The notes below the pieces were generated by a model that saw only the letters and a list, made by a program, of their open reading frames with translations, searched no databases and had not been told where the DNA came from. From Rhodovulum kholense (GTDB lineage Bacteria; Pseudomonadota; Alphaproteobacteria; Rhodobacterales; Rhodobacteraceae), in NCBI RefSeq assembly GCF_003053725.1, contig NZ_QAYC01000025.1, positions 1 to 40,188 of the forward strand: DNA of 40,188 bases, given 5' to 3'. Position 1 is the stretch's first letter, and each line of letters opens with the position of its first letter. Positions 7,784 through 31,823 of the stretch are shown here, piece after piece. A program made the position numbers and the translations under genes.

Positions 7784-8535
7784 GGTGCGGACTCAATAGC
7801 TCTGATCCAGATGCGTGTTGAGGCTAGAGCGACGGCGGCGAGGAAGGTGTCGGCGTGTTTGTCGACGCATGTGGCAGTGCGGCGGAACTGTTCGAGACGG
7901 CAGAAGACTCTCTCGACAAGGTTGCGTTTGCCGTAGAGGTCCCGGGCCACACAGCGTTGCAGGCGCATCCGGCTCTGGGTCGGGATATGCGCCTCGCCGC
8001 CGCATTCGGTGACAAAACGGACCAGCGCCATGCTGTCATGGCCGCGATCCGCGACCACCTGCGACGGTGGCAGCGCGCCGAGCAGCAGGGTCGCCACCGT
8101 CTTGTCGGAGGCTTGCCCGGCCGTGAGCAGCAGCCTCACCGGCGGCCCGTCCTGATCCACCACCGCATGGATCCTGGTCGTCAATCCGCCACGAGAATGG
8201 CCGATGGCGTGATCCGAGCCCGCTTTTTGCCCTCGGCGGCGTGCCAGTGGGCCGCGGATGATGGAACTTTCGATCAACGGCATCGACTGCGGCGCGCGGC
8301 GCGCCGGTTCCTCGACTGCATTCTGCCAGACACCCCGTTTGGACCAGAGGTCGAAGCGGTTGGAGACCGTGGTGCAAGGGCCATGGCGCTTGGGCAGATC
8401 CCGCCACCAAGCGCCCGTCCGGACGACGTGGTAGATGCCGTTCACCACCCCGGCGCTTGCCCTTGTCCGGCCGCGGCAGCAAGGGCTCGACCAGCCGCCA
8501 GTCCTCATCGCTCAGGTCGTATCCGCCATGAGCTC
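7780..8535 (-). pseudogene. IS5/IS427-type transposase, several frame breaks
   Basis: DDE transposase. In the longest frame I read GIYHVVRTGAWWRDLPKRHG, DHAIGHSRGGLTTRIHAVVD, VVADRGHDSMALV and DLYGKRNLVERVFCRLEQF, all family hallmarks including the D and E of the catalytic site. The N-terminus (YDLSDEDWRLVEPLLPRPDK) is in another frame, with a break near 8446-8455 and no start codon in its frame. A second break near 8250-8262 precedes a segment AHWHAAEGKK that ends on an A5G slippery run (8223-8228 on the complement), the sort of site where such elements use a programmed -1 shift. With extra indels, the gene is probably dead. Confidence 0.8.
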
Positions 8536-8603
8536 CCCTCCTTTTCCAGGAGGAAATGAAGCACGCAACCGCGCAAGCAGGACTCCCTGTTGAGCATGCG
8601 GCC
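7783..8603 (-). mobile_element. IS5-family (IS427-like) insertion sequence, about 820 bp
   Basis: Imperfect terminal inverted repeats: the left end GGGTGCGGACTCAATAG (from 7783) and the reverse complement of the right end (to 8603) agree at 11 of 17 positions. The element is flanked by TA (7781-7782 and 8604-8605) within CTAG on both sides (7780-7783 and 8603-8606), as expected for this family's short target duplication. The size is typical. It holds one degraded transposase gene on the minus strand. Confidence 0.8.
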
Positions 8604-8634
8604 TAGCCGCTCGCCCGGTCTGTGCATATCAAGC

Positions 8635-8961
8635 GGGTTAGTGTCCGATGACGTGGTGTAATTTCTGCGCCGTTGCCGGTGTGCCCCCGGCGGATCACCG
8701 AGGTGTATGATCGAGGTGGAGTTTGGCGGCTTCAACCGGGTTCACACGGACCCCCCGATGATCACGACCAACATGGATCGGTCCGGGCTTCTGGCCAAGC
8801 ACGGCCAAGGCGATTTCCTTCGCGCCATGGCCCGGGCCGGTCTGCCGCTGATCATGGAGGCCGACGTTGACAGCCTGATCGGTGCCGGGCGGGACGAACG
8901 CTGCGGGGAACGTACGACTTGGCGAAACGGGTATCGAGCGCGCGCCCTCGATACCCGTTTG
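8635..8961 (+). mobile_element. IS256-family insertion sequence remnant (5' part)
   Basis: From ATG at 8758 the product reads DRSGLLAKHGQGDFLRAMAR, then a segment close to GAGRDERCGERTTWRNGYR and ALDTRL, which matches the N-terminal region of IS256-type (mutator) transposases. Similarity stops abruptly at about 8961, so the catalytic domain is missing. The upstream GTTAGTGTCCGATGACGTGG (from 8637) resembles an IS terminus, but no matching right end was found. Confidence 0.65.
8925..8960. repeat. perfect 14-bp inverted repeat at the IS256 break
   Basis: The arms AAACGGGTATCGAG (8925-8938) and CTCGATACCCGTTT (8947-8960) are exact reverse complements separated by 8 bases of C/G. The repeat lies exactly where the transposase similarity ends. 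It could be a fold-back junction or a fortuitous terminator; no T run follows beyond the arm. Confidence 0.75.
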
Positions 8962-8990
8962 AGTGCTTCAAGATCCGCAATATCCCAAAG

Positions 8991-9346
8991 CCGATCCGTC
9001 CGCCCACCAGCCATCGCGCGAGTGACGCGCGGAGACTGGCGGGCACGGCAAGGCCCGCCGTCTCGTCCCGGAGGTCGAGATGCGCATGCAACTGCGCAGC
9101 GATGGCTGCGCGCCGGTCCTCGGGGATGGCGGTCATGCTGGCAGCATAGACCGTACTGTCGTGCCGCCGCCGAAACCGGGCCGTGCGGCCTTCCGCTGCG
9201 GAGGGCCGCCGTGCCGCGATCGCCTTCACACCGCGCCAGTCGGGCTTCGCAAGCGGCGTCTCGAACTGCGCCCGGTTCCCCTTCGCGCCCTGATCGACTG
9301 CGAGAATTCTGGCACGGCGCGCCGGGCCTTTGCTGCGCGCGGGCAT
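8991..9346 (-). CDS. possible truncated hypothetical protein
   Basis: A minus-strand frame starting at ATG 9346 has a realistic composition (for example SMTAIPEDRRAAIAAQLHAH, then a segment with SLRASLARWLVGG) and runs into the IS256 remnant without a stop of its own. I recognise no family and see no ribosome binding site. It may be the 5' part of a gene cut by the IS, or a chance frame in GC-rich DNA. The rest of the 8962-9477 stretch shows nothing else I can support. Confidence 0.25.
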
Positions 9347-9477
9347 CGAAGGGCGCCGGGGAAACGCTGCGCTCACCGGGTTTGCCGGGCGGTGCGACCA
9401 TGTAGCCAAAGGTTGCTGCGGCCCCTACTGTGGCGGCCGAAACACCGACCTGGCCGACAGTGTGAGGAGCCTCAGGA

Positions 9478-10842
9478 ATGCGTCAGATTTCGGAACCGGC
9501 CCGGCAGGTTGACGTCGTCTTCGAAACCGATGTGATCGTCGTCGGCTCGGGTCCCGGCGGTCTGGCGGCCGCGCTGGCCGCCGCGCGGGCGGGGGTGGAC
9601 GTGGCGCTGGTCGAACGGTTCGGCTGTTTCGGCGGCAACATCACCGCCGTCGGGGTCGAGGGCTTCGCCTGGTACCGGCACGAGGCCACCATTGAGGCCG
9701 GCGGGATCGGCCGCGAATTCGAGGATCGCGCCAAGGACATGGGCGCCGCGGTGCCCGAAAGCCAGTCGCTGAGCTATGAGCTTGACAGCGAGGGGTTCAA
9801 GCTGGTGGCCGACCGGCTGGTCGAGGAGGCGGGCATCCACCCGATGCTGCACCGCCAGTTCGTCGCCCCGGTGATGGATGGGGACCGGATCGTCGGCATC
9901 ATCACGGAATCGAAGGCCGGGCGCGAGGCGATCCTGGGCAAGATGGTGATCGATGCCACGGGTGATGCCGACGTGGCCCACCGGGCCGGTGCCCCGACCC
10001 GCATGACCCCGCGCGAAACCATGATGGCGGCCTCGGTGATGTTCCACCTCGCGGGGGTCGACAAGACCGCCTTCATGGAGGGCATCAAGTCCGATCCGCA
10101 GACCTATCGCGACTGGGGCGGCGGCGGCGAATGGACCATCGAGACCTCGGGCAAGGAGGACGAGATGTTCTCGCCCTTCATCAAGAAGCCGTTCGAGCGG
10201 GCCATTCAGGAGGGGCTGATCCCGGCCCATCTGAACACCATCGCCGGGACCTGGGGCGCGCTGCACGATACCGGCGAGCTGACCTACATGAACCTCGTCC
10301 ATCTTGACGCGGTCGACGGGACCGACCCCGACAGTTTGACCAAGGGCGAGATCGAAGGGCGGCGCCAGACGATGCTGGCGATCGAGGCGCTGAGGCGGTT
10401 CATGCCGGGCTGCGAGGGCGCGCGTCTGCGGAACTTCGGCATGACCATCGGCATCCGCGATACGCGCAAGATCGACGCGGCCTATAACATGACGGAAACC
10501 GATGTGCGCGAACAGGGCCGGTTCGAGGATTCGATCGGCATCTATCCCGAATTCATCGACGGCTACGGCATCCTCATCCTGCCGACCACGGGGCGCTACA
10601 TGCAGCTGCCCTATCGCGCGATGCTGCCGAAGAGGGTCAAGGGTCTGCTGGTCGCCGGGCGTTCGACGGGCGGTGACCGGATCGCCCATGCCGCGACGCG
10701 CAACATGTCCTGCTGCGCCGTCGTGGGGCAGGGCGCGGGCGTGGCGGCGGCCAAGGCCGTGAAATCGAACCGGGACGTGGGCGAGGTCGACCTGACGGCG
10801 GTGCAGGGCGAGCTCAAACGTCAGGGCGTGCGGATCGACTGA
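9478..10842 (+). CDS. FAD-dependent oxidoreductase
   Basis: 454 residues with an N-terminal Rossmann FAD site (GSGPGG at residues 23-28, followed by the acidic end of the second strand in VALVERFGCFGGN). Family features of the FAD_oxidored group include GDADVAHRAGAPTR, an IGIRDTRKI segment and the C-terminal GRSTGGDRIAHAATRNMSCC, with paired cysteines near the flavin end. A GAGGAG-type ribosome site precedes the ATG. It is a single gene on the plus strand converging on the polyamine block. The substrate is not evident. It may act on a small organic acid or amine, but that is a guess. Confidence 0.85.
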   Translation: MRQISEPARQVDVVFETDVIVVGSGPGGLAAALAAARAGVDVALVERFGCFGGNITAVGVEGFAWYRHEATIEAGGIGREFEDRAKDMGAAVPESQSLSYELDSEGFKLVADRLVEEAGIHPMLHRQFVAPVMDGDRIVGIITESKAGREAILGKMVIDATGDADVAHRAGAPTRMTPRETMMAASVMFHLAGVDKTAFMEGIKSDPQTYRDWGGGGEWTIETSGKEDEMFSPFIKKPFERAIQEGLIPAHLNTIAGTWGALHDTGELTYMNLVHLDAVDGTDPDSLTKGEIEGRRQTMLAIEALRRFMPGCEGARLRNFGMTIGIRDTRKIDAAYNMTETDVREQGRFEDSIGIYPEFIDGYGILILPTTGRYMQLPYRAMLPKRVKGLLVAGRSTGGDRIAHAATRNMSCCAVVGQGAGVAAAKAVKSNRDVGEVDLTAVQGELKRQGVRID

Positions 10843-23222: not shown

Positions 23223-23834
23223 TCAGATCACGCCGCGGCAGCGCGCCAGGGATGTCGCCTGCGACGTCGTGGCGGCGCCGAGCTTGCGCTTGGCATTGGC
23301 CAGACGGGCCTTCACTGCGCTCATCGAGATGTCGAGCTCGGCCGAGATCTCCTTCAGGCGCAGGCCATCGGCCTGCATCCGAAGCGCCTCGGTCTCGGCG
23401 CGGGTCAGGGGGCGTTCCCCGGACTCGGATACGTGCAGGCGGGTGACGATGCCCAGAAGCTCGGCCATTTCCGTCGGGCCATAGGCGCGATCCGACCGGG
23501 CGAAGGTGCCATAACTGCGCCGTCCCGAGTCGCCTGGCCGCATTACCGAGACCACGGCCCCAAAGCGCAGTCCGAAGGCGGCGGCCTGTCCGAAGACGTC
23601 GGAAGGATCGTCATGGGCCAGCGCCGCTCAGGGCGTGACGCCGGTGCGCGCATAGACCCAGCGGAAAACGGGGTCCTGCACGATAAGTCCGCTGCGCGCA
23701 TAGTAATCCGTCCAGTCTCCGGGCAGGCGGTTGATTTCCTGGGCGGGATAGGCGAACCCGAGCCGCAGCCCGACATAGAACCCTGCGGGGGCAAGCGTGG
23801 CGAGACGGTCGGTCAGTTTCTTGCGAAGATCCAT
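23223..23834 (-). pseudogene. LuxR-family regulator interrupted by an in-frame TGA
   Basis: Read through, the gene encodes about 203 residues: an N-terminal autoinducer-binding-type domain (APAGFYVGLRLGFAYP, then DWTDYYARSGLIVQDPVFRW) and a C-terminal LuxR/GerE helix-turn-helix (LTRAETEALRMQADGLRLKE, then a run ending VKARLANAKRKLGA). Codon 69 is TGA (complement of 23628-23630). The frame is otherwise continuous on both sides (RTGVTP, stop, AALAHDDPSDVFGQAAAFGL), and the partner gene has Trp at the matching place (TGAIHW), so a TGG to TGA change is the simplest explanation. The product would lack its DNA-binding domain. It is divergent from a sensor-only homologue. Confidence 0.85.
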
Positions 23835-23905
23835 CGGCTATACATCTGGTCGGGAAGGGCTTGAACTATGCGGCGCTTTGGTAGCAGGAGCAGCGCCGGA
23901 TTTCC

Positions 23906-24415
23906 ATGGGCGTTTGCGAGGCGCGGCGGATGTCGATGAACAGGGTAAGCAAGGCCGCCGAACTGCTGGGGGCGCTGCGGCAAAGCTGCGACACCGGTTT
24001 CGTGGCGGCACTGCATATCCGCTTTACCCGCCCGCTGGTGATGTACCGGACCTATCCGCAGGCCTGGTGCGATCACTACGACCTGAACGGGCTGGTGGTC
24101 AGCGATCCGTCGGTCCGCTGGGGGTTCTGCAATACCGGGGCCATTCACTGGGACGATACCGCGCTTGACGACCCGGCCGGCGTGATCGCCGCCGCGCGGT
24201 CCTTTGGCGTGGCCAATGGCGTGACGGTCTCGGTCGGTCCCGCGACCTCGCGAAGCCTGGCCGGGCTCTCGCGCGCGTCGGGGCGGTTCGGCGCGGCCGA
24301 GGTGCAGCATCTGGTCGGTCTGGTCGAGACCCTGCATCTGGTCCTGGACGGGATCGAGGACGAGGATGGTCCCGAACTTCGGGCGCTCCGCGCGCTCGGC
24401 GGTCCCGCCGCCTGA
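23906..24415 (+). CDS. autoinducer-binding-domain protein without HTH
   Basis: Up to 169 residues. FVAALHIRFTRPLVMYRTYP, then a DHYDLNGLVVSDPSVRWGFC segment with the W/Y/D pattern of LuxR signal-binding domains; TGAIHWDD and VANGVTVSVGP follow. The protein ends after this domain (GPAA, stop at 24415), so it cannot bind DNA by itself. ATG codons at 23930 or 23936 may be the real start. It faces the broken LuxR gene across 71 bases and lies upstream of the fabI operon. Such pairs of full and sensor-only LuxR proteins occur in Rhodobacteraceae. It may form heterodimers with, or compete with, its partner. Confidence 0.75.
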   Translation: MGVCEARRMSMNRVSKAAELLGALRQSCDTGFVAALHIRFTRPLVMYRTYPQAWCDHYDLNGLVVSDPSVRWGFCNTGAIHWDDTALDDPAGVIAAARSFGVANGVTVSVGPATSRSLAGLSRASGRFGAAEVQHLVGLVETLHLVLDGIEDEDGPELRALRALGGPAA

Positions 24416-24496
24416 AAGCGCCCGGCACGCGAAGGCCGCAGGGCGGCCCGCGCCTTTTCCACCCCCTGCCACAGCTTTGTCATCGTCGCCGGTTAC

Positions 24497-24561
24497 GCTG
24501 CGGGTGCAAAGAGATCCGAAGCGCGCTATGCTGCAGGTGCAAAGGCGCTGCGGCTGCAAGG
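24497..24561 (+). promoter_or_regulatory. three 15-bp TGC-rich direct repeats, candidate PhaR-type operator
   Basis: GCTGCGGGTGCAAAG (24497-24511), GCTGCAGGTGCAAAG (24530-24544) and GCTGCGGCTGCAAGG (24547-24561) share CTGC-N4-GCAA. The spacing between starts is 33 and 17 bases. PhaR, the polyhydroxybutyrate-sensing repressor of related bacteria, is reported to bind CTGC-N3-4-GCAG, one base different. The last repeat ends 29 bases before the fabI-like start. Confidence 0.6.
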
Positions 24562-24590: not shown

Positions 24591-25355
24591 ATGTTTTCAC
24601 TGGAAGGCCAGACGGCACTGATCGTCGGGATCGCGAACGACAAGTCCATCGCCTGGGGCTGCGCCCGTGCGCTGCGCGCGCAGGGAGCCCGGATCGCGGT
24701 TACCTATCTCAATGACAAGGCAGAACCTTTCGTCCGGCCGCTGGCCGAGGAGATCGGCGCCGAGATTTTCCTGCCGCTCGATGTGCGCAACGAGACCGAG
24801 ATGGATACCGTCTTCGCCGAGATCGGGGCGCGCTGGGGGCGGCTCGACACGGTGGTGCATTCGATTGCCTTCTGCCCGCGCGATGACCTGCATGGCCGCG
24901 TTGTCGACTGTTCGGCCGAAGGCTTCTCGCTGGCGATGGACATTTCGGTACACTCTTTCCTTAGAATGATTCGGAGAGCGGAGGCGCTGATGCCCGCCGG
25001 GGGCACCTGCATGACCGTGTCCTTTGCCGGGGCGACGCGCGTGGTCGAACACTATAATGTCATGGGCCCGGTCAAGGCCGCCCTTGAATCGACGGTGCGC
25101 TATGCCGCCGCCGAACTGGGGCCGAAGGGCATTTCGGTGCATGCGCTCTCGCCCGGGCCGCTGGCGACGCGGGCGGCTTCGGGGATCGCGGAATTCGACG
25201 AACTGCTCGATGCGGCGGCCGAGCGGGCGCCGACCCATCACCTGGCCACCATCGAGGATGTCGGGGCCTATTGCGCGTTTCTCGCCAGCCGCGAGGCGTC
25301 CAACGTGACGGGGGGCGTTCACGCCATCGACGGCGGCTATTCGATCATCGGCTGA
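24591..25355 (+). CDS. fabI: enoyl-ACP reductase (FabI family)
   Basis: 254-residue short-chain dehydrogenase/reductase. The FabI nucleotide site [16 protein letters not shown] is at residues 13-28, the catalytic Tyr155 and Lys162 have the FabI spacing (YNVMGPVK), and the C-terminus reads [14 protein letters not shown]. FabI reduces enoyl-ACP (or enoyl-CoA in some members) with NAD(P)H. ATG 24591 has GGGAG in front. It heads a six-gene operon, 11 bases before the DUF3141 gene, which suggests a specialised reductase acting on operon-specific acyl substrates; being the cell's only fabI is also possible. Confidence 0.88.
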
Positions 25356-25366
25356 AGGAGACGACC

Positions 25367-27901
25367 ATGAACATGCATGTGGAACGCAGTTCCTCCGACG
25401 ACGCCGCAGAGATGATGCAGGCCCTGATCGGGGGCTCGGGAGCGATGGCGCAGGACCGGCTGGCGCTGATGACGGCGGTGGCCAGTGCGGCGCTGGAAAA
25501 CGCCGACCTGATGCGCGAGGTTGCCGGGCGGCATGGCAACCGCATGCTCGACACCCATTCGACCCGGGCGCGCGATCTGCTGGCGCAGATGCGCCGGCTG
25601 ATGGATGCCGCGCGAAGCTCGGGGACCGACCTGACGCCAGCGAGCCTCGCCGCCTCCTATCGCGACTATCTGCGCGATGCCGGCGAACGCTGGGTGCTGG
25701 CCATGGATGCGCTGCGCGAGCGCGGCGACATTTTTCGCGAGCACGAGGCGGCGGGCTGCCCACCCGTGCTGATCTACGATTACGAGGTGGTGATCGACGG
25801 GGCCGACCTGCCGCATCCCTGCAATTATCAGCTGTTGCGGATCCTGCCGCGCGACGGGATCGAGGTGTGGGACGACAAGCGGCCCTATATCATCATCGAC
25901 CCGCGCGCGGGCCATGGCGGCGGCATCGGCGGGTTCAAGCCAGACAGCCAGGTCGGTGTGGCGCTGAAGGAGGGCCATCCGGTCTATTTCGTGGCCTTCG
26001 GGCGCGATCCGAAGCCGGGCCAGACCATCGCCGATGTCTGCCGGGCCGAGGCGGAATTCGTGCGCGAGGTGACGCGGCTTCATCCCGAGGCCGCCAAGCC
26101 CGTTGTCATGGGCAACTGTCAGGGCGGCTGGGCGACGCTTCTGCTGGCGGCGACCAATCCCGACCTGACGGGGCCGATCGTGCTGAACGGCACCCCGGTC
26201 GCGACCTGGTCGGGCGAGGTCGGTCGGCACCCGATGCGCTATAATGGCGGCATCCTCGGCGGCACCGTGCAGCCGATGCTGTGGTCCGATCTGGGGGGCG
26301 GCCGCTTCGACGGCGCCAACCTGGTGACGAATTTCGAGCTTTTGAACCCCAGCCGTAACTATTTCCGCAAGTATTACGACATCTTCCGCGACATCGACCA
26401 GCCCGGCGCGCGCCAGCGCTTTCTGGAATTCGAACGCTGGTGGGGCGGCTTCTTCACGCTGAACGAGCCCGAGATCCGCTGGGTCGTCGAACAGCTTTTT
26501 GTCGGCAATCGGCTGACCAAGAACACCGCGATGCTGGAACCGGGGCGGCCGGTCGACCTCAAGATGATCCAGGCGCCGATCATCGTCTTCACCAGCCATG
26601 GCGACAACATCACGCCGCCGCAACAGGCGTTGAACTGGATCCTCGACGGCTATGCCGGGGTCGACGAGATCCGCATCCGTGGCCAGCGCATCGTCTACAT
26701 GATCCACGAAGAGGTTGGGCATCTGGGGATCTTCGTGTCCTCGAAGATCGCCAAGAAGGAACATACCGAGGTGTCCTCGACGCTGAAGACCATCGAGGCG
26801 CTGGCGCCCGGTCTTTACGAAATGAAGATCGACGCCGCCGAAGGCCGGGGCCAGAACCGCAAGTTCCTGGTCAGCTTCGCCGAACGGACCTTCGCGGATC
26901 TGGAAAAGATCTCGGGCGGGCGTGACGAAGAGGCGGCCTTTGCCGCAGTCTCGCGCATGAGCCATATCCAGTCCGAAGCCTATGACGCGATGGTCCGCCC
27001 GATCGTCCGGGCCTCGGTCAACCCGCAGGTGGCCGAGGCGACGCGGCGGCTGCATCCGCTGCGGCTGCAGCGGGCGATGATGTCGTCGATGAACCCCTGG
27101 ATCGCGCCGATCTCGACCGCGGCCCAGAAGGTGCGCGAGGACCGCAACCCGGCGGCCATCGACAACCCCTTCCTCTGGGCCGAACGCTTCGCCGCCGATC
27201 TGACCGAACAATGGATCGATTTCGGCCGCGACATGCGCGACGCCTGGTACGAGATGACCTTCTTCGCGCTCTGGAACACGCCCTGGGCGCGGGCCTTCGG
27301 CGCGCCCGAGGCGCTGCGGCGCACCCGCAAGTCGACGGCCGAGCTGCGCGCCCTGCCGATCGTGCAGACGGTGCTGTCGCATGTCGATCAGGGCGGGTTC
27401 GTCGAGGCGGTGATCCGCATGCTGATCCTGCTGGCCGAAAGCCGCGGATCGGTCCGGCGCGACCGGCTGGAACGCTCGGCGCGGGTGCTGAACCGCGACG
27501 AGCCCTTCGCCTCGTTGACGGCCGAGTGCCGCGCGCGCATCCTGCACGAACAGACGCTGATCGCGACCTACGACCCCGAGGGCGCGATCGAAACCCTGCC
27601 CAAGCTGTTGCGCGATCCCGAGGAACGCGAGCTGGCGGTGCGCGTCGTCCAGTATGTGCCGGGACCCATCGACGAGATGGCGCCGCACACGCTGGAAATG
27701 CTGCAACGCTTCCGGTCGGTTCTGGGCCTGAAGCCGCTGACCGCCGATGTCATCGACGACCCGCTGGCGCCTCCGGGCGCGGGCGCCCCCCGGGCCACGC
27801 GCGATGCGGTCGAGCATCCCGGACCCGAAGACAGCGTCAGCGAGACCCCGAAGCCTTTGGGCCGGGCAAAGGCGGGTGCAGAAGGAAAGACTGCTGAATG
27901 A
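25367..27901 (+). CDS. DUF3141 protein, PHA-synthase-like alpha/beta hydrolase
   Basis: 844 residues. After a helical N-terminal region (1-130) comes an alpha/beta-hydrolase core with a lipase-like box holding cysteine (MGNCQGGWA, Cys251) as in polyhydroxyalkanoate synthases, then Asp413 ([10 protein letters not shown]) and His452 (EEVGHLGIF). The Cys-Asp spacing (162) matches PHA synthases and Asp-His is somewhat longer. A further 350 residues of helical and disordered sequence, with a Pro/Gly-rich tail, have no known role. The gene is 11 bases after fabI and overlaps the next gene by 4. Polymer synthesis, polymer turnover or acyl transfer are all possible; no function is established for the family that I know of. 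Confidence 0.82.
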
Positions 27902-29307
27902 AGATTACGGAAAACCGCACCTATGACGAGATCTCGGTGGGCGACAGCGCCGAGATCGTCCGGATCAGCACGGAAGACGATTTCTATGTCTTTGCCAGTG
28001 CTTCGGGGAACTACAACCCGATGCATCTGGGGCGGGTCGATGGCGATGGCGACGGGGCGACCGAGGCAGTCGCGCCCGCGATGTGGGAGGCCTCGCTGAT
28101 CTCGGCCGTTCTGGGTAACCTGCTGCCCGGTCCCGGAACGCTGTACCAGAGCCAGAGCCTGATCTTTCACGAACGCGCCCATGCCGGGGACGAGCTTCTG
28201 ACCCGGGTGAGGGTCGTCGAAAAGCGCCCGCCGAACCGGATCGTTCTGGAAACCCGGGTCGAACGCTGTTCGGACGGGGCGCTGGTGCTGGACGGCGAGG
28301 CCGAGGTCAAGGCGCCGCCGAAAAAGCTTGTGTTCAACGATCTGGAAATCCCCGGTCTGGTGATCGAGCGCCACCGGCATTTCGACGCGCTGATCGCGCA
28401 GGCCGAACCGCTGGCGCCGCTGCCGACGGCGGTGGTCTGCCCCGAAGAGGCGCGCTCGCTGGGCGGGGCACTTCTGGGCGCGCGGCACACGATCATCGCG
28501 CCGATCCTGATCGGCGATCCCGCGAAGATCACGGCGGCCGCCGCCGAGATCGGCGCCTCGCTGGCCGGGATCGAGATCGTCGAGGCGACGGATCACGAGC
28601 GCGCCGCGCATCTTGCGGTCGATCTGGTGGCGGGCGGCCGTGCGGCCGCGCTGATGAAGGGGCATCTGCACACCGACGTGCTACTGAAGGCCGCGCTGCG
28701 CAAGGAGAACGGCCTGCGCGCCGGGCGGCGCTTCACCCATGTCTTCGTGATGGACGTGCCGGGCGTGCCGCATCCGCTGCTGGTGACCGATGCCGCGATC
28801 AACATCGCGCCCGATCTGCGCACCAAGGTCGACATCGTGCAGAACGCCATCGACCTTGCGATTTCCATCGGGATAGAGGTGCCGAAGGTCGGCGTGCTGT
28901 CCGCAGTCGAGACGGTGAACCCCGACATTCCCTCGTCGCTCGATGCGGCGCTTCTGTCGAAGATGGCCGAGCGCGGCCAGATCCGGGGCGGCATGGTCGA
29001 CGGGCCGCTGGCGATGGACAATGCGGTCGATCTGACGGCCGCGCGTACCAAGGGCATCACCTCGCAGGTGGCGGGGCGGGCCGAGGTTCTGGTCGTGCCG
29101 AACCTCGATGCGGGCAACATGCTGGCCAAGCAGCTGGCCTATATCAGCCATGCCGAAGGCGCGGGCGTGGTGATGGGGGCGACCGTGCCGATCATCCTCA
29201 ATTCGCGGTCGGACGACGACAAGGCGCGTCTGGCCTCCTGTGCCGTGGCGACGCTGCACAATGCCCGGCTGCACGGGCTGATGCCGGCCCGGCGGGCTGC
29301 GGAGTAG
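27898..29307 (+). CDS. MaoC-like hydratase fused to phosphate acetyl/butyryltransferase
   Basis: 469 residues. Residues 1-150 form a MaoC-type hot-dog domain (YDEISVGD, then SGNYNPMHL and the [15 protein letters not shown] strand). Residues 160-469 are a PTA/PTB-type phosphotransacylase ([25 protein letters not shown], and a C-terminal segment with [17 protein letters not shown]). Such fusions are annotated as bifunctional enoyl-CoA hydratase/phosphate acetyltransferase. In (R)-hydratases the catalytic pair is Asp-x4-His; here Asn38 replaces the Asp, with His43 kept, so hydratase activity is doubtful. It overlaps the DUF3141 gene by 4 bases and precedes ackA by 4, so acyl-CoA to acyl-phosphate to acid plus ATP is a likely flow. 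Confidence 0.9.
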
Positions 29308-29311
29308 ACCC

Positions 29312-30520
29312 ATGTCGCATGTTCTGACCCTGAATGCGGGGTCCTCCTCGCTGAAATTCGGCTTTTTCCGTCTGAACGGCACGGTCGAGGACCCCGACCC
29401 GCGCATCGTCGGCTCGATCGAGCGGATCGGGGCGGGCGAGCGCGCCCATATCAAGGCCAAGCGGCAGGACGGCTTCGTGCTGATCGACCAGGAATTCGGG
29501 CGCAACCATGTGCCCGATCACGACACGGCCTTGGCCCGGGCTGTCGAGTTCCTGAAAGAGCAGCGCCCGCAGGCCAAGCTTGACGCCGTCGGTCACCGGG
29601 TGGTGCATGGCGGGCCCGATTATGACGAGCCGGTCGAACTGACCCAGACCGTGATGGACCGCCTTGCCCAGTTCGAGCCGCTGGCGCCGCTGCATCAGCC
29701 GCATAATCTGGCGGGTGCGCGTGCGGCGCTGAAGCTGTTTCCAGAGGCGGTGCAGCTGGCCTGCTTCGACACCGCCTTCCACCGCAACCATCCCTGGGTC
29801 AACGATACCTTCGCGATCCCGCGCAAGTATTACGACCAGGGTGTGCGGCGCTACGGGTTCCACGGGCTCAGCTATCAGTACATTTCCGAAACGCTGCACC
29901 AGATCGCGCCGCATCTGCATATGGGCCGGACCGTGGTCGCGCATCTGGGCAACGGCGCCTCGATGTGCGGGCTGATGGGCGGGCGCTCGGTCGCCTCGAC
30001 CATGGGCTTCTCGGCGCTCGACGGGCTGCCGATGGGCACCCGCTGCGGCCAGCTCGATCCGGGCGTGCTGCTTTACATGCTGATGAACGAGGGCATGACC
30101 CCGGCCGAGATCGAGGATGAGCTGTACCGCAAATCGGGGCTTCTGGGCCTATCGGGCCTCTCGAACGACATGCGCACGCTCGAGGCTGCGGGCACCGAGG
30201 AGGCGCGACAGGCCATCGACTATTTCGTCTTCCGCATCCGCCGCGAGCTGGGCGGGCTGGTCGCGGCGCTGGGCGGGATCAGCACCATGGTGTTCTGCGG
30301 CGGCATCGGCGAGAACTCGGCCCTGATCCGCGAAAAGGTCTGTGCGGGCATGGGCTGGATCGGGATGGAACTGGACGAGACCCGCAACATGCGCAATGAG
30401 CGCATCATCTCGACCGATTTCAGCCGGGTGCGCATCCTGATCATTCCCACCGACGAGGAAATCGTCATCGCCCGCGCGGCCCGCGACATGCTGGCCCGGC
30501 GTGCGGAGGCCGCGGCATGA
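29312..30520 (+). CDS. ackA: acetate kinase family enzyme
   Basis: 402-residue kinase that makes ATP from an acyl phosphate or the reverse. The family patterns NAGSSSLKFG at the N-terminus, the CFDTAFHRNHP segment, HLGNGASMCG and GGIGENS are all present. Length is normal. It follows the phosphotransacylase by 4 bases and overlaps the CoA-transferase gene by 4. Whether it prefers acetate, propionate or a longer acid such as butyrate cannot be read; the partner domain makes a short-chain acyl phosphate likely. Confidence 0.93.
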   Translation: MSHVLTLNAGSSSLKFGFFRLNGTVEDPDPRIVGSIERIGAGERAHIKAKRQDGFVLIDQEFGRNHVPDHDTALARAVEFLKEQRPQAKLDAVGHRVVHGGPDYDEPVELTQTVMDRLAQFEPLAPLHQPHNLAGARAALKLFPEAVQLACFDTAFHRNHPWVNDTFAIPRKYYDQGVRRYGFHGLSYQYISETLHQIAPHLHMGRTVVAHLGNGASMCGLMGGRSVASTMGFSALDGLPMGTRCGQLDPGVLLYMLMNEGMTPAEIEDELYRKSGLLGLSGLSNDMRTLEAAGTEEARQAIDYFVFRIRRELGGLVAALGGISTMVFCGGIGENSALIREKVCAGMGWIGMELDETRNMRNERIISTDFSRVRILIIPTDEEIVIARAARDMLARRAEAAA

Positions 30521-31170
30521 AGCGCGCGCTGAAACCGGCCGAGGCCGCCGAGATGATCCCCGAAGGCGCGGTGCTGCTGATTGGCGGCTTCATGGGCGTG
30601 GGCTCGCCGCACCGGCTGATCGACGCGCTGGTGGCGCGGGGCGTGGGCGGCTTCACCGTCGTCGCCAATGACACCGCGCGGCCGGGCAAGGACATCGGCA
30701 AGCTGATCGACGCCCGGCTGGTGGCGAAATGCATCGTCAGCCATATCGGTCTGAACCCCGAGACCCAGCGCCAGATGATCGCGGGCGATCTCGAGGTCGA
30801 GCTGGTGCCGCAGGGCACGCTGGTCGAACGCATCCGCGCGGGCGGCGTCGGGCTTGGCGGCGTGCTGACCGCCACGGGGCTTGGCACCGTCGTCGCCGAG
30901 GGCAAGCCGACGGTCGAGGTCGACGGCAAGACCTATCTTCTGGAAAAGCCGATCCGGGGCGATTTCGCGCTGATCGGGGCGCGGCAATGCGACTATGTCG
31001 GCAATCTCGAATACACCCTGACCGCGCATAACTTCAATCCGGTGATGGCGATGGCCGCCGACACGGTGATCGCCGAGCCGCATCACGTGATGCCCGTTGG
31101 GATGATCCCGCCCGATGCGGTCAAGACGCCCGGGGTGCTGGTCGACCATATTCTGGAAAGGCTGATCTGA
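30517..31170 (+). CDS. atoD: 3-oxoacid CoA-transferase subunit A (AtoD/ScoA type)
   Basis: 217-residue alpha subunit that moves CoA between short-chain acyl-CoA and a 3-oxo acid such as acetoacetate. It has the N-terminal GFMGVGSPHRLIDAL glycine-rich loop, VPQGTLVERIRAGG and GDFALIGARQCDYVGN. The ATG overlaps the ackA stop, and the beta-subunit start overlaps its own stop, so the genes form the tail of one operon. This links acid made by AckA to CoA thioesters or ketone bodies. Confidence 0.92.
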   Translation: MKRALKPAEAAEMIPEGAVLLIGGFMGVGSPHRLIDALVARGVGGFTVVANDTARPGKDIGKLIDARLVAKCIVSHIGLNPETQRQMIAGDLEVELVPQGTLVERIRAGGVGLGGVLTATGLGTVVAEGKPTVEVDGKTYLLEKPIRGDFALIGARQCDYVGNLEYTLTAHNFNPVMAMAADTVIAEPHHVMPVGMIPPDAVKTPGVLVDHILERLI

Positions 31171-31823
31171 TGGACGCCAAGGAAGTGATCGCCCGGCGCG
31201 TGGCGCAGGAGGTGCGCGAGGGGATGCTGGTCAATCTGGGGATCGGCCTGCCCTCGATGGTAGCGAATTTCGTGCCCGACGACATGCATGTCTTCTTTCA
31301 GGCCGAGAACGGGGTGATCGGGCTGGGCCAGCGGCCGCCGGACGGGATGGAGGACCGCGACCTGACCGATGCGGGCGGCGGTTTCGTAACCGCGGTGCCC
31401 GGGGCCGCCTCGATCGACAGTGCGATGAGCTTCGGGCTGATCCGGGGCGGGCATCTGGACATGACCGTGCTGGGCGGGCTGCAGGTGGACGAAAAGGGCC
31501 ATCTGGCCAACTGGATGGTGCCGGGCAAGATGGTGCCGGGGATGGGCGGCGCGATGGACCTGGTCTCGGGCGCGCGCCGGGTGATCGTGGCGATGGTCCA
31601 TGCCGCCAAGGGCGATCCGAAGATCGTGCCCGAATGCACCCTGCCGCTGACCGCGCTGCGCCGGGTCAGCCTGATCGTGACCGAGATGGCGGTGATCGAG
31701 CCGACCGACGAGGGTCTTGCCCTGCGCGAGCGCGGGCCGGGCGTCGCGGTCGACGACATTCTCGCGGCAACCGCGGCCCGGCTGATCGTGCCCGACGAGG
31801 TGCCGGAAATGGTCCTGGCCTGA
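31170..31823 (+). CDS. atoA: 3-oxoacid CoA-transferase subunit B (AtoA/ScoB type)
   Basis: 217-residue beta subunit carrying the catalytic glutamate: VFFQAENGVIGLG places it at Glu46, which forms the glutamyl-CoA intermediate in this family. NLGIGLPSMVAN and NWMVPGKMVPGMGGAMDLV are also typical. It is the last gene of the operon. A GC-rich stretch with weak hairpins follows (31826-31905), but no clear T run, so the terminator is not defined. Confidence 0.93.
   Translation: MDAKEVIARRVAQEVREGMLVNLGIGLPSMVANFVPDDMHVFFQAENGVIGLGQRPPDGMEDRDLTDAGGGFVTAVPGAASIDSAMSFGLIRGGHLDMTVLGGLQVDEKGHLANWMVPGKMVPGMGGAMDLVSGARRVIVAMVHAAKGDPKIVPECTLPLTALRRVSLIVTEMAVIEPTDEGLALRERGPGVAVDDILAATAARLIVPDEVPEMVLA

Follow-up and report, generated by a model that had tools for sequence, protein, structure and literature searches.

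A DUF3141 operon of Rhodovulum kholense with a likely link to polyhydroxybutyrate metabolism

We describe a six-gene operon of the alphaproteobacterium Rhodovulum kholense that encodes a protein of the family DUF3141 and whose link to polyhydroxybutyrate (PHB) is fairly well supported, by its regulation and by the fold of that protein. The operon lies at 24591–31823 on the + strand of a 40,188-nucleotide stretch (contig NZ_QAYC01000025.1, positions 1–40,188; assembly GCF_003053725.1), hereafter the window; the analysed assembly comprises 4.46 Mb in 51 contigs. Operons of this type have been described before, and the one in the window is an enlarged relative of orfA-pta-ackA-fabI of Sinorhizobium meliloti. 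New here are the enrichment of PhaR-type boxes in the promoters, the match of orfA with DUF3141, the altered hydratase half of a fusion protein and a dead DUF3141 paralogue that appears constrained; in the parts of the open-access literature searched, we met no earlier report of the box enrichment, the hydratase change or the dead paralogue. As a tentative reading, possible though short of probable, we propose that the operon is a granule-sensed, PHB-linked acyl module that would pass hydroxyacyl units from polymer to coenzyme A (CoA) and recover ATP.

The six genes are, in order, fabI, the DUF3141 gene, a gene for a MaoC–phosphotransacylase fusion, ackA, atoD and atoA, with successive spacings of 11, −4, +4, −4 and −1 bases from 5′ to 3′. 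An earlier note, made from the sequence alone, had reported six reading frames packed here with overlaps or short gaps; the packing is as it described, and family profile searches match every gene name that it gave. fabI (24591–25355) encodes a FabI-family enoyl reductase (NCBIfam NF005717, 419.9 bits, cut-off 337). The DUF3141 gene (25367–27901; 844 residues; PF11339, 740.3 bits, gathering cut-off 29.7) starts with the ATG at 25367, the triplet at 25364 being ACC, which sets its gap from fabI at 11 bp. It is followed by the fusion of MaoC with a PTA/PTB-family phosphotransacylase (27898–29307; NF006045, 625.7 bits, curated cut-off 282), an acetate/propionate-family kinase of the AckA type (29312–30520; TIGR00016, 353 bits, cut-off 293.4; PF00871 also above cut-off) and the CoA-transferase subunits A (alpha; atoD, 30517–31170; TIGR02429, 214.4 bits, cut-off 128.5) and B (beta; atoA, 31170–31823; TIGR02428, 296.9 bits, cut-off 243.55), all on the + strand.

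The association of these genes is beyond chance. An even draw covered 299 Pseudomonadota genomes, that of the window among them; with DUF3141 matches counted at 480 bits or more, 19 other genomes contain the family. In 13 of the 19 the match has both a phosphotransacylase and an AckA-type kinase no more than a few kb away, and in 14 it has fabI within 10 kb. The earlier note had named rarity of DUF3141 homologues beside these two partners as fatal to its proposal, and these counts do not show such rarity. The two partners were not found beside DUF3141 in the remaining six genomes of this draw (G109, G145, G246, G294, G312 and G321), among which the DUF3141 matches of G246 and G312 have internal stops and those of G145 lie near contig ends. 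We also compiled the best 80 of 572 DUF3141 relatives as a locus set, from which 16 loci with a flank shorter than 6 kb were left out of the neighbour counts. The 64 complete loci contain fabI in 51 cases, a phosphotransacylase in 30, a kinase in 31, atoD in 24 and all six genes in 19; by these counts fabI and DUF3141 form the tightest pair in the set, often joined by pta-ackA and, beyond that, by atoDA. Six pairs of loci share a contig (L055/L036, L056/L034, L057/L046, L058/L042, L130/L050 and L067/L150), and the MaoC, kinase and FabI alignments counted below contain duplicates from them. Two plasmids carry related arrangements. On a 59.9-kb Methylorubrum populi plasmid typed as mobilizable, fabI, DUF3141, a MaoC/phosphotransacylase gene and a kinase gene occur together (L188:216-6041), so the module may travel; on Sinorhizobium americanum plasmid B, DUF3141 stands beside a divergent phasin-family gene (L183:6404-6733, 7911-10301), with pta-ackA not annotated nearby.

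The DUF3141 protein is a PhaC-like α/β hydrolase that begins with long helices and carries a helical extension at its C terminus. Its structure model (pLDDT, a predicted local confidence score, of 83) has polyhydroxyalkanoate (PHA) synthase PhaC as its best matches in the PDB, and the α/β hydrolase core carries the Cys-Asp-His triad of PHA synthases. The predicted triad, Cys251, Asp413 and His452, is invariant across 45 aligned DUF3141 homologues, numbered in that alignment one higher than in the protein read from the ATG at 25367; the cysteine lipase-like box that the earlier note had pointed out is GNCQGGW, with Cys251. The protein thus has its catalytic-domain fold and triad in common with class I PhaC (5t6o, 5hz2 and 9knj), and differs in its extra helical C-terminal region, in structural alignments of only 14–20% identity and in the PhaC_N domain (PF07167), which found no match in the whole protein at an E value of 0.001 or in its N-terminal 134 residues at an E value of 1; the genome's own PhaC scores 239.9 bits with PhaC_N. 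A search of the N-terminal helices for a phasin signature stayed under the cut-off (Phasin_2, E 0.13). Among the matches listed, in a search that may omit the window's own record, the closest named relative of the DUF3141 protein comes from Rhodovulum visakhapatnamense (98% identity). The idea that DUF3141 is the main PHA synthase of the cell was rejected, the genome having PhaC_N-bearing genes, as was the other PF11339 match in the genome (C7:180336) as a paralogue, a PhaZ-like family scoring higher there (100.8 versus 62.9 bits). In passages of the literature, one paper places the family with PHA synthases, another gives one DUF3141 gene as a PHB depolymerase and a further one has a DUF3141 hypothetical protein within a phaCAB cluster; those passages of open-access papers that name the family contain no enzyme assay of it.

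Upstream of fabI lie three PhaR-type boxes within 24499–24558, TGCGGGTGCA (24499), TGCAGGTGCA (24532) and TGCGGCTGCA (24549), tandem repeats of the form TGCR-NN-TGCA. Passages of PMC12542648 give the S. meliloti PhaR core as YGCRNYGCR, with one-base spacing, and TGC-rich PhaR sites in Paracoccus and Rhodobacter are recounted in part of PMC10888616. We compared 51 fabI-first regions (the window and 50 loci, 30 of the 80 being left out for want of a qualifying fabI start) with 243 promoters of other genes from the same loci. A strict PhaR pattern that admits either spacing, shaped after inspection of these same promoters, occurs in 35 of 51 fabI-first operons and 16 of 243 controls, and the published one-base core alone in 34 of 51 and 33 of 243. 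By genus, most members of 14 of 23 groups have the strict pattern (control rate 6.6%), and the majority of members in 11 of 23 have the published core (control rate 13.6%). When the 4.46-Mb genome was scanned with an extended two-base box at no more than one mismatch, five sites were found against one for the reversed control pattern: two lie at the fabI promoter, a third between phaC and phaZ, and the last two elsewhere. The two-base variant is thus common to the window's boxes and the phaC box of the same genome; one-base boxes precede phaP, and phaC has phaR and phasin genes next to it. In Bradyrhizobium diazoefficiens, according to passages of PMC10888616, a table of phaR-mutant targets gives blr3456–blr3459 as raised 7.2-fold (7.2 in both value columns), pta (blr3457) and ackA (blr3458) are named as induced, and blr3456 is termed hypothetical; the PhaR targets there include phaZ1 and phasins, and the main synthase gene phaC1 is not PhaR-controlled.

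Together with the PhaR-type boxes, two further kinds of site suggest that storage state, phosphate and oxygen may all serve as cues, their use differing by lineage. A PHO-box-like sequence, CTGCCACAGCTTTGTCAT, stands at 24466–24483 on the + strand (position −125); it agrees with 12 of 14 positions of the consensus, which is weak for a single site. With the best site within 200 bp upstream taken in each case, and the pattern sought after inspection, the mean score is 10.14 for operon upstreams and 8.78 for controls. The FNR/FixK-type sequence TTGAN6TCAA is found at −56 to −69 of DUF3141 in all five loci of one genus, g67 (L135, L136, L137, L139 and L141), where its background is 3–7 per 20 kb, and also upstream in Rhodobacter sp. 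CZR27; it is found at none of the 51 fabI-first operons and at 1 of 243 controls.

The MaoC half of the fusion looks catalytically disabled, judging by its aligned residues. Aligned to the (R)-specific enoyl-CoA hydratases 5cpg and 1iq6, it has Asn in place of their Asp (SGNYNPMH versus SGDRNPVH and SEDFNPLH), so the Asp-His pair of hydratase 2 is incomplete; the Asn also aligns to the Asp of 3ir3, the His is retained and AP stands at the HG position. The Asp and His of this motif are the catalytic residues of PhaJ. At the Asp position, 47 of 62 aligned proteins have Asn, 3 Asp, 1 Gln, 1 Ala and 10 a gap, so that Asp is absent from 49 of the 52 with a residue there; at the following catalytic position, 41 have His and 7 have Met. 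AP in place of HG occurs even in the three Asp-bearing proteins, L112, L115 and L124, which are all from Ruegeria. In fusions without an adjoining DUF3141, the motif was recovered in 10 of 16 loci (the search gave no match in the other 6): eight keep Asp, His and HGM, and two, both from genomes of the window's class, have Asn (L175 and L179). With this active site altered, the operon would supply no hydratase step. In the even draw, only 3 of the 13 phosphotransacylases linked to DUF3141 have a MaoC part; the other 10, like that of S. meliloti, match the NF006045 model from about position 138 onward, that is, without MaoC. The phosphotransacylase part is PTB-like (TIGR02706, 304.4 bits, below the equivalog cut-off of 410.5, versus 57 bits for TIGR00651), and its nearest solved structure is the phosphate butyryltransferase 7vg9. 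In the Rhodovulum fusions and several related ones (window, 27898–28359; L055, L031 and others), the MaoC motif is followed by a loop of sequence DGDGDG, which differs from that of the aligned PhaJ proteins and resembles a calcium-loop pattern.

The kinase, the second ackA of the genome (the other lies at G000:C2:245735), belongs with the acetate kinases rather than the butyrate kinases (353 bits for TIGR00016 versus 39 for TIGR02707), and the catalytic Arg96 and His184 positions are retained in 76 of 76 aligned sequences. The position of a pocket Pro is Ala in 70 of the 76, the window included. In FabI, the Y-x6-K pair (Tyr155 and Lys162) is present in 93 of 93 aligned sequences, and Phe145 stands where two aligned solved homologues carry Tyr; the genome has two further FabI proteins, 47 and 41% identical to that of the operon. 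Both CoA-transferase subunits score above their subfamily cut-offs (TIGR02429 and TIGR02428), and the sole other match to atoD in the genome at an E value of 1e-10 is 41% identical.

The closest known system is that of S. meliloti. According to passages of PMC8231600, which cites Summers 1999, ORF-pta-ack-fabI is co-transcribed there under PhoB control, and in two S. meliloti replicons we find the order DUF3141-pta-kinase-fabI with the motifs GNCQAGW and GHLGIF; from this gene order, orfA is most likely the DUF3141 gene. The same four gene families occur in both organisms, in the window contiguously on one strand; the window puts fabI first and adds the MaoC part, atoDA and the PhaR-type boxes, whereas S. 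meliloti has fabI last and a Pta of 318 residues. Five large genomes of genus g67 have DUF3141-pta-ackA-fabI, and the Bradyrhizobium run blr3456–blr3459, raised in the phaR mutant, resembles it, blr3456 being presumably DUF3141 by its position. Burkholderia sensu lato, as described in parts of PMC8231600 and compared there with the S. meliloti operon, has phaC with a phaJ-pta fusion, ackA and fabI (group D1): like the window, it combines a hydratase–phosphotransacylase fusion with a kinase, FabI and a neighbouring gene of the PHA synthase type, with PhaC in the place of DUF3141. Among fusions linked to phaC in other genomes, those of L167, L168, L171 and L172 keep the hydratase motif intact, and the motif search found none in L169, L173 and L174. 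Part of PMC8222739 describes Herbaspirillum phaC2 in an operon with pta-ackA and suggests a role for acetyl phosphate.

Some Rhodovulum genomes split the module. In four (G004, G006, G008 and G009), pta-ackA lies beside another DUF3141 paralogue, and three of the four carry fabI-DUF3141-atoDA elsewhere. This second DUF3141 is present in five genomes (those four and G007; loci L035, L037, L039, L041 and L043), where Gly replaces the Cys and Pro or Leu the His of the triad and the Asp is kept; G006 has no other full DUF3141 match. All five have a luxR pair upstream; four have pta-ackA downstream, where the contig of the fifth ends. Pairwise dN (nonsynonymous divergence) of 0.11–0.32 and dS (synonymous divergence) of 0.35–0.78 give dN/dS ratios of 0.29–0.42 among second copies, compared with 0.20–0.38 among active ones, as point values with no significance test, and suggest a pseudoenzyme under constraint. 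The strict PhaR pattern lies upstream of one of the five, their start codons being uncertain. In the window, a LuxR-like autoinducer-binding protein of 169 residues with no DNA-binding domain (23906–24415, + strand; PF03472 the only Pfam family found) precedes the operon. The same short form occurs at nine further Rhodovulum loci and is the operon's upstream neighbour in part of the genus; a role for it in the module is unproven. A divergent full-length luxR (about 23223–23836, − strand) has an in-frame stop in the window and an open 203-residue frame in the near-identical locus L036. On the 3′ side, family searches identify genes for a LacI-type regulator and a solute-binding protein, whose relatives adjoin the operon only in L036 among 20 loci of related genomes searched.

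We propose that, when PHB granules are present, PhaR would be titrated off the fabI promoter and the operon expressed, with PhoB-type or FNR/FixK-type control added by lineage. DUF3141 would act as a PhaC-fold cysteine acyltransferase that moves 3-hydroxyacyl units between CoA and the polymer or its oligomers, release being the most likely direction. PHB release is usually drawn as hydrolysis; Uchino in 2007 is reported to have found CoA-dependent breakdown of PHB to acetyl-CoA by isolated granules. The phosphotransacylase and kinase could then convert acyl-CoA through acyl phosphate to free acid and ATP; alternatively, the CoA-transferase might hand CoA to acetoacetate, the BdhA product of 3-hydroxybutyrate, returning carbon to acetyl-CoA. 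FabI may reduce an enoyl thioester that arises as a side product or sink, the least certain of these steps. The earlier note had proposed a self-contained module for making or breaking down a hydroxyacyl polymer or short acyl chain. Its polymer side gains from the PhaR-type boxes and from the blr3456–blr3459 entry for the phaR mutant in the seen part of PMC10888616; its view of the module as self-contained is not supported, since phaC, phaP, phaR, phaZ and bdhA lie elsewhere in the genome (a bdhA copy at C1) and the apparently disabled MaoC offers no hydratase step.

Several observations weigh against this proposal. Its weak point is direction: PhaR in Bradyrhizobium also represses the synthesis paralogues phaA2, phaB2, phaC2 and phaC5, as told in passages of PMC10888616, so that PhaR control leaves direction unfixed. 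The kinase pocket has the acetate-type Val in 75 of 76 aligned sequences, which favours acetate or propionate over 3-hydroxybutyrate. The window's three boxes, spaced by two bases, do not fit the published one-base core, and enrichment of the two-base form by itself is mild (16 of 51 versus 28 of 243 controls). Where DUF3141 comes first, the strict box is found at 4 of 15 loci (L138, L140, L144 and L148) and at none of the five of genus g67; nor does the S. meliloti operon have a box by the pattern used. Passages of the S. meliloti PhaR paper (PMC12542648) leave pta, ackA, fabI and acetate kinase unmentioned, and a text search of the S. meliloti PHB-mutant transcriptome paper (PMC5596199) gave no match. 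The best fold match outside PhaC, gastric lipase, lies just 2.8 Z below it. Finally, fabI is the sole partner of DUF3141 in 20 of the 64 complete loci and 9 have no partner; the acyl-phosphate enzymes are therefore not obligatory partners.

Pta-AckA and CoA-transferases are reversible, and the same enzymes could therefore run towards assimilation, with acetate or another short acid activated by the kinase, phosphotransacylase and CoA-transferase and DUF3141 building a polymer or oligomer. This is the reading given to Burkholderia D1, and passages of PMC8231600 suggest storage of excess acetate; a synthase is the nearest fold to DUF3141, and repression of synthesis paralogues by Bradyrhizobium PhaR would suit it too. 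We nevertheless hold it to be rather unlikely, since a canonical PhaC with PhaC_N is already in the genome and DUF3141 shows no PhaC_N match, and since, in the seen part of PMC10888616, phaC1 escapes PhaR while phaZ1 and blr3456 are under its control. Plain overflow of acetate when phosphate or oxygen is limiting, with DUF3141 and FabI as passengers handling some other ester or fatty acid, would agree with the PhoB inducibility of the S. meliloti operon (PMC8231600, in part), the AckA-type pocket and the FNR/FixK-type boxes of genus g67 (5 of 5 loci) and Rhodobacter sp. CZR27; PhaR-type boxes at DUF3141 operon promoters and a phosphotransacylase that is PTB-like rather than Pta-like (304 versus 57 bits) make it quite improbable.

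The acyl phosphate made by Pta-AckA might instead be a signal, an effector tuning a PHA synthase-like protein or two-component regulators and not an intermediate of bulk flux. Passages of PMC8222739 propose such a role for acetyl phosphate in PHB metabolism from the co-expression of phaC2 and pta-ackA and cite control of a cyanobacterial PHA synthase; the PHO-like sites upstream of the operons are in keeping with it, and a DUF3141 lacking Cys and His in five Rhodovulum genomes, with pta-ackA adjoining in four, would fit a regulator or scaffold. It leaves the presence of FabI and AtoDA among these genes unexplained, and we regard it as decidedly doubtful. Butyrate fermentation from PHB, in which MaoC would dehydrate 3-hydroxybutyryl-CoA, FabI yield butyryl-CoA and PTB and kinase release butyrate with ATP, has in its favour that all four enzyme classes stand together and that the transferase is PTB-like. 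It is very improbable: Asn replaces the MaoC Asp in 47 of the 52 aligned proteins that have a residue at that position, and the window has AP for HG; in the even draw, 10 of the 13 phosphotransacylases linked to DUF3141 lack MaoC, as does that of S. meliloti; and the kinase is not a butyrate kinase by its scores; a complete in-operon form was rejected on the first two grounds.

The proposed PHB-linked acyl module can be extended, more speculatively and with little likelihood, to a second exit from PHB in Alphaproteobacteria: DUF3141 would cleave the polymer with CoA instead of water, the thioester energy would pass to ATP via acyl phosphate, and PhaR would act with PhoB or FNR/FixK according to lineage, some Rhodovulum keeping an active enzyme alongside fabI and atoDA, plus a dead, constrained copy by pta-ackA that would serve as a polymer- or CoA-sensing pseudoenzyme. 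For the fusions linked to DUF3141, the apparently disabled hydratase half calls for caution with the automatic name 'bifunctional enoyl-CoA hydratase/phosphate acetyltransferase'. If DUF3141 does release units onto CoA for the phosphotransacylase and kinase to harvest, a family of unknown function would gain a role, and single-gene mutants of rhizobia could test how PHB is connected with acetyl phosphate and phosphate starvation.

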